The notes under the pieces were generated by a model, which had not been told where the DNA came from, did no database searches, and saw only the letters and a list, made by a program, of their open reading frames with translations. DNA of 64,000 bases from Planctomycetales bacterium (GTDB taxonomy: Bacteria; Planctomycetota; Planctomycetia; Planctomycetales; Planctomycetaceae): contig JAPLOA010000092.1 in the NCBI GenBank assembly GCA_026400835.1, forward strand, positions 1 to 64,000. The letters run 5' to 3'. Below, piece by piece: positions 39,148-43,107 of this stretch. Made by a program: the position numbers and the translations under genes. Numbering within the stretch: position 1 is the first letter of the stretch; each line of letters starts with the position of its first letter.

Positions 39148-42100
39148 ATGACTCTCAATCGCCCTGATATCCGCGAACTTCTCGAACAACGTATCCTCGT
39201 CATCGACGGCTCGATGGGTGCGTTAATCATGTCGAACAATCCGACCGAAGAAGGTTATCGAGGTGCGAGGTTCAAAGATCACCCGATTGATCTCCGCAAT
39301 GCCACGGACCTGCTCGTGCTGACTCAGCCGGCTCTGATCTCCGGCATCCATCAGCAGTATCTTGATGCTGGTGCGGATATCATCGAGACCGACACGTTCA
39401 ACGCGAACATCGTGTCGATGGAAGAATTCGGACTGGCTCATCTGACCTACGAAATCAACAAGACCGGTTCCGAGCTGGCTCGCGCAGTGGCTGATAAAGA
39501 GACTCTAAGGAACCCGAACAAGCCGAGATACGTTGCGGGGAGTATTGGGCCGACCAAGGTTCAGCTCTCGATGAATGCTGACAAGCCGGGAAGCCGACCG
39601 TTCCAGTTTGATCAGATGGTCGAGTCCTATGCCGAACAGATTCGCGGCCTGATGGATGGTGGCTGCGATTTGCTTCTGCCAGAAACCAGCTTTGACACGC
39701 TCAACATGAAGGCGTGTCTGTTCGCGATCGGGCAAGTATTCGAAGAGAAAGGCCGGGAGATTCCGGTCATGATCTCCGGGACTGTGTTCACCGGCGGAGT
39801 GACTCTGCTGGGCCAGTCTGTCGAAGCCTTCTACGCAGCCGTCGAACATTTTCCGGCACTCAGCATCGGCTTCAACTGCGCGCTGGGGCCGAAGCAGATT
39901 AAGCCGTATCTCGAAACGCTTTCGAACATGGCGACGAAGTACGTGAGCTGCTATCCCAACGCAGGTATGCCGGACGGGATGGGCGGCTTTGATACGAGTG
40001 CTGAAGACTTCGCAGAGATCGTGCGCACTCTGGCGACCGCTGGTTTGCTGAACATCGTCGGTGGCTGCTGCGGAACGACTCCGGCCTACATTCGGGCGGT
40101 CGCGGAAGTGGTCAAAGATATTCCGCCGCGAAAGATTCCACAGGGCAACGGCTGGTCGACATATTCCGGATTCGATTACCTGGCCCTGCGCCCCGAATCG
40201 AACTTCATGAACGTCGGCGAGCGCACAAATGTCGCTGGTTCACGCAAATTCCTGCGACTTGTGCGAGAAGACAAGTTCGACGAAGCGATCAGCATCGCTC
40301 GCGATCAGGTCGAAGGCGGCGCACAGGTGATCGACGTCAACATGGACGAAGGTCTGCTCGACGGGCCTCGCTGCATGGAGAAGTTCCTGTGGCTGCTGCA
40401 CGATGACAATATTCGCGTGCCGATCATGATCGACAGCTCGGACTGGAAAGTTCTGGAAGCCGGCCTGAAGTGCGTTCACGGCAAGAGCATCGTCAACAGT
40501 ATCAGTCTGAAAGAAGGCGAAGCTGAGTTTCTGCACAAAGCGAAGCTGATTCGTCGCTACGGTGCGGCAGTCATCGTGATGGCGTTTGATGAAGTCGGAC
40601 AGGCCGCGACATGCGAAGAAAAAGTTCGTATCTGCAAGCGAGCGTTCAGGCTGCTGACAGAGAAAATCGGTTTTCCGCCGACGGACATTATCTTCGATGC
40701 CAACATTCTGACCGTCGGCACGGGGATGGAGGAGCATTCGAACTACGCGGTGGAATTCATCGAAGCGGTTCGGCAAATCAAGAAGGAATGTCCCGGAGCC
40801 AGGACATCGGGCGGCGTGAGCAACGTGTCGTTCTCCTTCCGAGGCAACGATGTTGTTCGTGAAGCGATGAATGCGGTCTTCCTGTATCACGCGGTGCAGG
40901 CGGGGCTCGACATGGGCATTGTCAATCCGCAGCAGTTGGAAGTGTACGACGAAATCGACAAGGAACTTCTGGTCTACATCGAAGACGTTGTTCTGAATCG
41001 ACGTCCCGATGCGACCGAGCGACTGATTGACTTCGCCGAAAAGGTCAAAGCCAAAGCCAGCGGCAAAGAGAAGGTCGAAGAATGGCGAAGCGGTACCGTT
41101 GAAAAGCGTCTGCAACATGCTCTGTTGAAGGGAATCACCGATTACATCGACGGCGATACGGAGGAAGCTCGGCTGAAGTACGGACGTCCTCTGGATATCA
41201 TTCAGGGTCCGCTGATGGACGGCATGAACGTTGTCGGCGAACTGTTCGGCGCTGGCAAGATGTTTCTGCCTCAGGTCGTGAAGTCCGCGCGAGTGATGAA
41301 GAAATCGGTTGCGTGGCTTGAGCCGTTCATGGAGGCAGAAAAGGCGATCAAAGCAGAAGAAGCCCGGCGAGCGGGGGGCGTCAGCCCCCCGAGTTTTCGC
41401 GGGAATACGGCAGAAACCGAAGGTCAGCTCGGTGGGCTGACACCCACCGCTCGCCTGATCGAAAACGGTTTCTTCACAGGAACTCGTGAAGAAGCCGTTT
41501 TCCTGGCCGAAGCCGCTGAGAAACTGGCCGATCCGAATTCAATGGCGAGCAGCAATCGCGGCACGTTTCTCATCGCCACGGTGAAGGGCGACGTCCACGA
41601 CATCGGTAAGAATATCGTGGCGGTCGTACTCCGCTGTAACAACTTCAAAGTGATCGACCTTGGGGTCATGGTGCCGTGTGAGAGGATTCTGGAAGAAGCG
41701 ATTAAGCACAAGGCCGACATCATCGGACTCAGTGGACTGATCACGCCGTCTCTGGAAGAAATGATCATCGTCGCTCGCACGATGAAGGAGCAGGGTTTCA
41801 CCGTTCCGCTACTCATCGGCGGAGCGACCACCAGTGCAAAGCATACGGCCGTGAAGATTGCTCCTGTGTACGACCAGCCGGTCTTGCATGTGGGCGATGC
41901 GTCACTTTCCGTTGGTGTTGTCGAGGCTCTTCTGGATCCGACACAGAAGGCCGACTATGCGACGAAGAATCTGGAAGCTCAGGCGAAGGCACGAGCGTCC
42001 TTCGATCAGCGTCAGCAGGTCACTTTGATTCCGTATGCGGATGCTCTCACGAAGCGAATGACGATTGACTGGGCGAATTACACGCCGCCAAAGCCGGAGT

Positions 42101-43107
42101 TCATGGGGACTCGAGTGATCGAAGACCTGCCTCTGGAGGAACTGGTTCCGTACATCGACTGGTCTCCGTTCTTCAGCTCATGGCAGTTGATCGGCAAGTA
42201 TCCGAAGATTTTGAACGATGCTGTTGTTGGTGAGGAAGCTCGCAAGCTGTTCGAGGATGCTCAGGCAGAACTACAGCTGATGCTGAAGGACAAGAGCATC
42301 AAAGCTCGCGGCGTCTACGGTTTCTGGCCGGCGAATTCCGATGGTGATGACATCGTGCTGTGGACGGATGAGACTCGGACAAAGGAACTGATGCGGTTCC
42401 CAATGCTGCGTCAGCAATGGGAACGAGTCGGGCAGACTACGTTTCGATCGCTGGCCGACTATGTCGCTCCAATATGTAGCCATCACGCTCCGCGTGATGC
42501 GCCTTCATATAGCCCAACGTCACTCACCGACAACGATAACCCTGCAAGGCTCGTCACGCGGAGCGATGACGGCTACGTTGACTACATCGGCGCTTTTGCC
42601 GTCACCGCCGGCCATGGTTGTGATGAACTCGCGAAAAAGATCGAAGCCGCAGGCGATGATTATCGAGCCATCATGATCAAGGCCCTGGCGGATCGATGTG
42701 CAGAAGCATTCGCGGAGTATCTGCATGCAAAAGTGCGGCGAGAATGGAGCTATGGCAAGTCAGAGACACTGACGAACGATCAGCTGATCGATGAGCAGTA
42801 CGACGGTATTCGTCCGGCGTTTGGCTATCCATCATGTCCGGATCACTTGCCGAAGGGACCGCTCTGGGAATTGCTCGATGCCGAAAAAGCCACTGGCATG
42901 AGTCTCACCAGCAGCTTCGCCATGTGGCCGGCGGCCTCCGTCAGCGGCATGTACTTCAGTCTGCCGGATCGGATGATACAGGGCTCGAAGTATTTTGCTG
43001 TGGATCGCATCAGCAAAGACCAGGTTGAGAATTATGCATCTCGAATGAAGATGACTGTCAAAGACATCGAACGTTGGCTGGCACCGAACTTGGGGTACAA
43101 TCCCTAA
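39148..43107 (+). CDS. metH: Cobalamin-dependent methionine synthase
   Basis: MetH transfers a methyl group from methyl-tetrahydrofolate through cobalamin to homocysteine. All modules are present in 1319 residues: homocysteine domain (about 1-330) with zinc ligands Cys244, Cys307 and Cys308; pterin domain (about 350-620); cobalamin cap (about 650-735); B12 domain (about 795-930) with DVHDIGKN, in which His817 is the cobalt ligand; and the SAM-binding activation domain (about 985-1319) ending RWLAPNLGY. The E. coli protein is about 1227 residues. Two palindromic elements, at 41366-41455 (residues about 740-770) and 42476-42575 (about 1110-1143), are read in frame and account for most of the extra length. 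A nucleotidyltransferase-like gene starts 16 bp after the stop. Confidence 0.95.
41366..41455. repeat. 90-bp REP-doublet element inside metH (first)
   Basis: The ends are 22-bp inverted repeats (41366-41387 and 41434-41455), matching at 20 positions. Each end folds by itself: GGGGGC-gtca-GCCCCC on the left and GGTGGG-ctgaca-CCCACC on the right. This is the layout of two REP units in opposite orientation. The length is exactly 30 codons and the frame stays open, adding a Gly/Pro/Ser-rich stretch ([15 protein letters not shown]) between the cap and B12 domains. Confidence 0.88.
42476..42575. repeat. 100-bp REP-doublet element inside metH (second)
   Basis: The left end GTAGCCATCACGCTCCGCGT (42476-42495) recurs inverted at 42552-42575 with one base inserted and about two substitutions. 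The left end also forms its own hairpin, CATCACGC-tcc-GCGTGATG. It interrupts the activation domain between DYVAP and DYIGAFAV, where E. coli MetH has about six residues, and adds roughly 30 residues without breaking the frame. Its sequence differs from that of the first element. Confidence 0.85.

Follow-up and report, generated by a model that had tools for sequence, protein, structure and literature searches.

In-frame palindromic doublets of two REP families in the methionine synthase gene of a planctomycete genome

Results

The metH gene and its two inserts

The window, i.e. the whole stretch of 64,000 nucleotides that was analysed, contains a metH gene which was identified as a complete methionine synthase by its NCBIfam and Pfam matches. 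Two palindromic doublets lie in its reading frame, referred to below as insert 1 (family 1) and insert 2 (family 2). The features are the following:

39148..43107, + strand: metH, cobalamin-dependent methionine synthase, 1319 aa (open reading frame; PRK09490 and TIGR02082 over cut-off; five Pfam domains in order)
41101..41322, + strand: cap domain B12-binding_2, residues 652-725 (Pfam), upstream of insert 1
41366..41393, + strand: left REP unit of the family-1 doublet (inverted repeat; 120 family matches in the genome)
41394..41427, + strand: spacer of the family-1 doublet, 34 nt between the arms
41428..41455, - strand: right REP unit of the family-1 doublet, inverted (inverted repeat)
41563..41841, + strand: B12-binding domain, residues 806-898 (Pfam), downstream of insert 1
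42130..43047, + strand: activation domain Met_synt_B12, residues 995-1300 (Pfam), with insert 2 in one loop
42476..42505, + strand: left GTAG-tagged REP unit of family 2, in frame as ...CSHHAPRDA... (RNA fold z -8.2, 0/200 shuffles)
42546..42576, - strand: right REP unit of family 2 (inverted repeat; 43 family pattern matches in the genome, reversed control 0)

The 90-bp element at 41366-41455, described in the initial annotation as a REP doublet in the metH frame, was found to be real, with inverted arms and a fold far beyond that of shuffled sequences (z -6.4 as DNA and -6.6 as RNA, 0 of 200 shuffles being as good in each). The inverted ends had been put at 22 bp; the inverted-repeat analysis resulted in arms of 28 nt each, of which 25/28 positions are paired (89% complementary). 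The self-folding proposed for each end was seen as a hairpin core in each arm, the left one being GGGGGGCGTCAGCCCCCC. With up to 3 mismatches allowed, two occurrences of the core 18-mer were counted in the window, compared with a mean of 0.03 in 100 shuffles. The ends of the family-1 unit are GGCG and CTCG and CGTC lies inside the hairpin, so that neither tag of the GTAG/CGTC superfamily was found at a unit end of the element at 41366. When the sequence of the family-1 consensus unit is read, all three frames are open on one strand and two of the three on the opposite strand, and survival in frame is therefore easy.

The placement between the cap and B12 domains was also correct, with residue 725 as the last of B12-binding_2 and residue 806 as the first of B12-binding. 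The 30 codons said to be added correspond to the approximately 30 residues that are encoded by the element, but the net gain relative to the nearest relatives was 27 codons (90 vs 63 residues between the same anchors). A single doublet had been described in metH, and the second one, at 42476-42576, was overlooked. It is unrelated to family 1, is also in frame and is located in a loop of the activation domain. Its unit begins with GTAGCC at 42476 and thus has the GTAG at the unit end that characterizes the GTAG superfamily.

In the AlphaFold2 model of MetH residues 640-1319 (36 alignment rows), the mean pLDDT was 80.6. The block means of insert 1 were 62, 51 and 59 (residues 740-769), and the pLDDT of insert 2 was below 50 over residues 1112-1140. 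The model has another weak segment at its positions 585-590, which has no relation to the inserts. The alignment of human MTR (9ssp) with the query breaks off after residues 732 and 1111 and continues from 804 and 1142, respectively; both inserts thus fall in gaps of the human alignment. The in-frame palindromes in metH and in other core genes are probably translated as floppy linkers.

Copies of the two families in the genome

The genome is metagenome-derived and comprises 7,578,519 bases in 112 contigs (99.99% complete, 0.82% contamination). The family-1 unit had 120 matches at up to 2 mismatches and the family-2 unit 43 matches at up to 3 mismatches, and no match was obtained with either reversed pattern. 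The coding context was determined around the 100 of the 120 family-1 places that were listed. A looser scan around the listed matches gave 127 family-1 and 46 family-2 units, which were paired by rule into 50 head-to-head doublets (37 of family 1 and 13 of family 2) and 73 single units; the rule misses some doublets, including insert 2 of metH and site A of LeuS. Around the listed matches, 14 of the 50 doublets lay within an ORF that extends 40 codons or more to either side of them, and the other 36 were in no ORF of this kind. Together with the 33 places found in the genome by BLAST with a 108-bp query, this agrees with the several intergenic copies expected in the initial annotation. The units are short, palindromic, dispersed, of high copy number, paired in opposite orientation and mostly extragenic, as are REPs and REPINs. 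An arsenic operon contains a family-1 doublet between its arsD-like and its arsA-like gene (G000:C76:77400-77550).

Ten of the 14 in-ORF doublets were in ORFs with Pfam matches, and no Pfam match was obtained for the three ORFs searched among the four remaining cases. One doublet each was found in a DUF6797/cytochrome protein, ValS, metH, LeuS, an IleS-like synthetase, a 2181-aa TPR protein and a PMT_2 glycosyltransferase, and three rule-paired doublets were found in an 1827-aa ceramidase/DUF7133/cytochrome c protein (G000:C77:56414-61897; L069:915-6398). By inspection, the latter contains five doublets of the two families and a half element, and LeuS contains two in-frame doublets (sites A and B). 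The 1827-aa protein also has a further repeat-like stretch, NFKSQISNLKFEISKD.

Family-1 doublets are read in three reading frames in unrelated proteins. The doublet length was a multiple of 3 in 8 of the 10 Pfam-supported in-ORF cases, compared with 11/36 outside ORFs (around the listed matches). Among 10 ORF pairs flanking non-genic doublets, of which seven were clearly two genes and three had a right-hand ORF without a Pfam match, no gene broken by an out-of-frame element was detected.

These data bear on the alternative that the insert is cut from the RNA or bypassed by the ribosome, as in the case of the mitochondrial byp elements, and that MetH is made without it. The strong hairpins in essential genes and the lack of amino-acid constraint on the inserts would fit such a process. 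However, the in-gene elements were open in the host frame (ORF-based detection being biased to open cases), their lengths favour multiples of 3, the indel in insert 2 is 12 nt, and no broken gene was seen among the flanking pairs, three of which lack a Pfam match on the right. Removal or bypass is accordingly considered very improbable.

At up to 1 mismatch, family-1 matches were obtained in 32 of 120 genomes of the same taxonomic family, with counts of 1-473 and none with the reversed control in any genome; the distribution is therefore patchy. The counts of G083 and G114 were 473 and 176, respectively, compared with 92 in the own genome.

Transposases beside the copies

Nineteen matches to Y1_Tnp (PF01797) were found in the own genome. 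The Y1_Tnp ORF on contig C73 (248 aa) has family-2 doublets on both sides, and its product carries HVH and YISNN motifs and matches the RAYT model with a score of 55.7, under the NCBI cut-off of 80. Three family-1 units follow immediately downstream of the ORF on C27 (189 aa), and a unit with 5 mismatches precedes it; the product of this ORF scored 28.1 bits with IS200 (cut-off 55) and 26.3 bits with RAYT (cut-off 80). Both proteins are above the Pfam cut-off and below the NCBIfam cut-offs for RAYT and IS200. An adjoining RAYT/Y1 transposase, as expected for REPs and REPINs, was found for both families by position only, and on that basis we infer the pairing of the C27 and C73 transposases with their REP families. 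At four loci among the other 17 Y1_Tnp matches, there were family-1 matches only at 5-6 mismatches, or none. On C36, a 240-aa ORF flanked by family-2 doublets was considered as a third RAYT and rejected, as neither Pfam nor NCBIfam gave a match.

In the direction away from its inner end, the family-1 unit has CT-CGGA before the hairpin, which fits the CnGA foot. The class 3 Y motif YV[VI][AENY]EQ is absent from the C27 protein, which has YIERQ.

Insert 1 in related genomes

The MetH alignment comprised 64 rows (loci L072-L135, with three duplicate pairs), and 46 further loci (L136-L181) were left out. Among these rows, the own row alone has this family-1 doublet. The initial annotation predicted relatives that lack the stretch, and 10 of the 11 distinct close relatives with a readable site had a linker of 62-63 residues without insert 1. 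In a tree built from 15 MetH rows after masking of the two linkers, the own row was sister to RE26jul17 (a partial row), which is without insert 1. The linker of G123 (L104), outside the own-like group, is of exactly the own length and has no palindrome; the flank identities are 0.79 and 0.73, and the similarity between its core and the own core is weak, an equally good match being reached by 27 of 1000 shuffles. In L119, which belongs to a different lineage (63% identity), another family-1 doublet with 32-bp perfect arms was found in the same MetH linker. The filled and empty sites differ too much for a target-site duplication, as in MITEs, to be read, and no event of transposition was observed.

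In L092 (the MetH of G048), the cap-B12 linker comprises 133 residues in the aligned span, including a putative winged-helix-type domain recognized by eye. For TH-plancto1 (L138) and G027, a MetH ORF of 1586 aa was noted, which has extra insertions elsewhere in the gene.

Reuse of the same protein sites

Insert 2 is common to the own genome, G101, RE26jul17, UBA72 and G053; relative to the four other copies, the own one lacks 4 codons (12 nt), and the frame is kept. RH20APR16 and G120, which are inside the insert-2 clade, have other inverted repeats at this site. With at least 12 exact bases per arm, 17 inverted repeats were counted in 63 MetH rows (two duplicate pairs among them), compared with 2.2 after codon shuffling; the own family-1 doublet itself fails this arm rule. 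Six of the 17 lie at own residues 755-787, in five loci and with five different arm sequences, and three lie at insert 2 (residue 1113).

Similar patterns were observed in other hosts. At LeuS site A, the own genome, G053 and G081 have a doublet at the same junction and G101 is empty (95% identical, best segment). The own genome and G101 have a doublet at LeuS site B, where G053 and G081 have one unit each. In ValS, the own genome and G120 share a doublet with the same left junction, G123 has a different insert, and G101 (97%, best segments), G113, G121, G124 and G125 are without the doublet. At one site of the 1827-aa protein, family 1 is present in the own genome and family 2 in G053. In related species, different palindromes thus reuse the same protein sites. 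As G101 is empty at LeuS site A and in ValS while distant species are filled, one simple gain is insufficient. The ValS proteins of the own genome (L259) and G120 (L260) also contain an in-frame repeat-like stretch of a third type, SEISNLKSQI and SQISNLKSQI, respectively, near the active-site half, and it resembles a stretch in the C77 protein.

An assembly artefact would be suggested by the occurrence of insert 1 in one genome only, by the 112 contigs and by the tendency of repeats to be misassembled. This explanation is highly improbable, given the completeness and low contamination of the genome and the homologous or analogous in-frame inserts in other assemblies (MetH site 2 in five genomes, LeuS site B in the own genome and G101, and the linker of L119).

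Divergence of the shared inserts

The identities at codon positions 1, 2 and 3 of MetH insert 2 between the own genome and G101 were 30/35, 33/35 and 35/35, and those outside the insert, in the part compared, 353/370, 364/370 and 261/370. The difference at third positions was significant (Fisher p 1.3e-5). With UBA72, the corresponding values were 23/35, 31/35 and 32/35 in the insert and 1167/1260, 1205/1260 and 719/1260 outside. Between G053 and UBA72, 33/39 third positions of insert 2 were identical, compared with 631/1259 in the host gene. The values of LeuS site B between the own genome and G101 were 31/33, 31/33 and 33/33, and those of LeuS outside the site 847/890, 859/890 and 667/890. 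In nine comparisons, which share rows and are not independent, the third-position excess was clear in four (p<=1e-4), moderate in four (p 0.005-0.03) and absent in one short insert (p 0.15). The LeuS comparison of G053 and G081 gave p 0.17 at the fourfold sites of site A and p 0.15 for site B, which makes two of the nine weak. The number of same-width windows elsewhere in the gene that matched the value of the insert was 0-18, and 121 of 993 for the short insert.

In the shared inserts, codon positions 1, 2 and 3 therefore diverge about equally and usually less than the third positions of the host. The plain reading of these sequences is that the peptide of the shared inserts is under no detectable constraint. 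The equal divergence, below that of host third positions, suggests a cause at the DNA level instead of selection on the peptide, i.e. that the insert DNA is younger, homogenised or constrained.

A linker peptide selected for MetH function was considered, as the cap-B12 linker of methionine synthase, in which insert 1 sits, must move during the catalytic cycle. The codon positions of the shared inserts diverge about equally, unlike those of the rest of the gene, and on this evidence a protein function of the insert was rejected. Since, in addition, nearly all of the close relatives (10/11) lack insert 1 and the same family occurs in unrelated proteins in three reading frames, there is very little likelihood that the peptide was selected.

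According to another alternative, the palindrome is a nucleic-acid element under selection, for instance a protein-binding site or an mRNA hairpin that modulates metH translation or stability, the peptide being only incidental. The better conservation of the shared inserts relative to host third positions is in agreement with this, as is the identity of 37 of 39 cells over four comparisons when the fourfold sites in the REP arms alone were taken. On the other hand, the spacers, needless for a hairpin, also appear conserved in the closest pairs, unpaired changes were found in one arm of UBA72, the nearest relatives are without insert 1, and RH20APR16 and G120 have other inverted repeats at site 2. 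The same signal would result if the copies had undergone gene conversion or had spread recently, and the comparisons are non-independent and two of them weak. Selection on the nucleic acid is thus regarded as rather unlikely. Homogenisation at the DNA level or recent spread among relatives is the favoured explanation of the slow divergence, over a function of the peptide.

Discussion

Insert 1 is very probably a REP doublet of the REPIN-like kind, mobilised in trans by an IS200/RAYT-type HuH transposase and tolerated in the MetH linker, and the same applies to insert 2. The doublet would be mobilised as single-stranded DNA by such a transposase acting in trans, as the neighbouring Y1_Tnp genes suggest, and a family-1 copy would have inserted into metH between the cap and B12 domains in the lineage leading to this genome. 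Due to the length that is a multiple of three and the lack of a stop codon, the ribosome is expected to read through insert 1, and MetH would gain a disordered loop which is presumably neutral for the enzyme. An older doublet of the unrelated GTAG family may have been inserted likewise in the loop of the activation domain. More generally, hairpin doublets borne by HuH transposases most likely insert widely, with most of the coding hits being purged and the survivors being multiples of three in disordered loops.

The reuse of sites allows a further, tentative reading, which we hold to be possible but not probable: certain loops and linkers of essential proteins in the planctomycetes studied may be standing docking sites, where unrelated palindrome families are swapped at the same codons and the residents are maintained as DNA and not as peptide. 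The maintenance could be achieved by transposase-linked homogenisation, recent interspecies spread or a function of the hairpin, and a stretch of a core gene would then evolve like non-coding mobile DNA with the frame kept.

The kind of event is known, as in-frame intragenic REP dimers are already described in the main text of PMC3733652 (Di Nocera et al. 2013). There, dimers of 20-30 codons are reported in frame in many proteins of several phyla, so the view of the initial annotation that in-frame palindromic elements are best known from Rickettsia is too narrow. The highest number of intragenic GTAG cases in that text is that of Opitutus terrae, the uvrA gene of which was hit twice, tRNA synthetases are among the hosts, and recB of two Xanthomonas species carries different REPs at about the same site. 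The doublets studied here are alike in their in-frame position in core genes, the double hits, the synthetase hosts and the shared site. They differ from the GTAG/CGTC dimers of that text in that family 1 has no GTAG or CGTC end, two unrelated families occur in one gene, five doublets occur in one protein, and the substitution patterns at shared inserts were measured. In the passages of PMC3733652 on intragenic dimers, no planctomycete gene is named among the cases.

The Rickettsia palindromic elements are similar as selfish palindromes in frame in protein genes, and are from another phylum and of another sequence. In the main text of PMC3733652, RPE-4 and RPE-6 correspond to CGTC repeats, and no dedicated transposase is reported there for CGTC. 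The class 3 TnpA-Y1 transposases with CnGA-foot repeats, which have REP-like copies, are mainly from Planctomycetes, Acidobacteria and Proteobacteria according to PMC6006769. The CGGA of family 1 and the planctomycete occurrence fit this class, but the YIERQ of the C27 protein is not the Y motif listed for it in that text.

Like the REPIN/RAYT systems, the doublets consist of two inverted REP hairpins and a spacer, are dispersed and have RAYT genes beside some copies. They differ by the RAYT score of the C73 protein, which is under the NCBI cut-off, and by their presence in genes, as REPINs are typically extragenic.

Searches of the open-access literature gave no report of in-frame REP doublets in planctomycete genes, of the multi-family reuse of sites or of a codon-position test of inserts. 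The reuse of sites by different palindromes and the near-equal codon-position divergence of the shared inserts look less ordinary than the insertion itself.

If the interpretation is true, essential enzymes would repeatedly receive new linker sequence from transposase-linked palindromes, and a comparison of species at one and the same site would amount to a natural insertion experiment. With the codon-position pattern, it can be tested whether a mobile element is able to hold a piece of a core gene under DNA-level and not protein-level evolution. For the activity of family 1, G083 and G114 are well suited as study genomes. Concerning annotation, planctomycete proteins with in-frame stretches resembling GGVSPP, GGLTPTAR or SHHAPRD may contain REP doublets at these places instead of domains.
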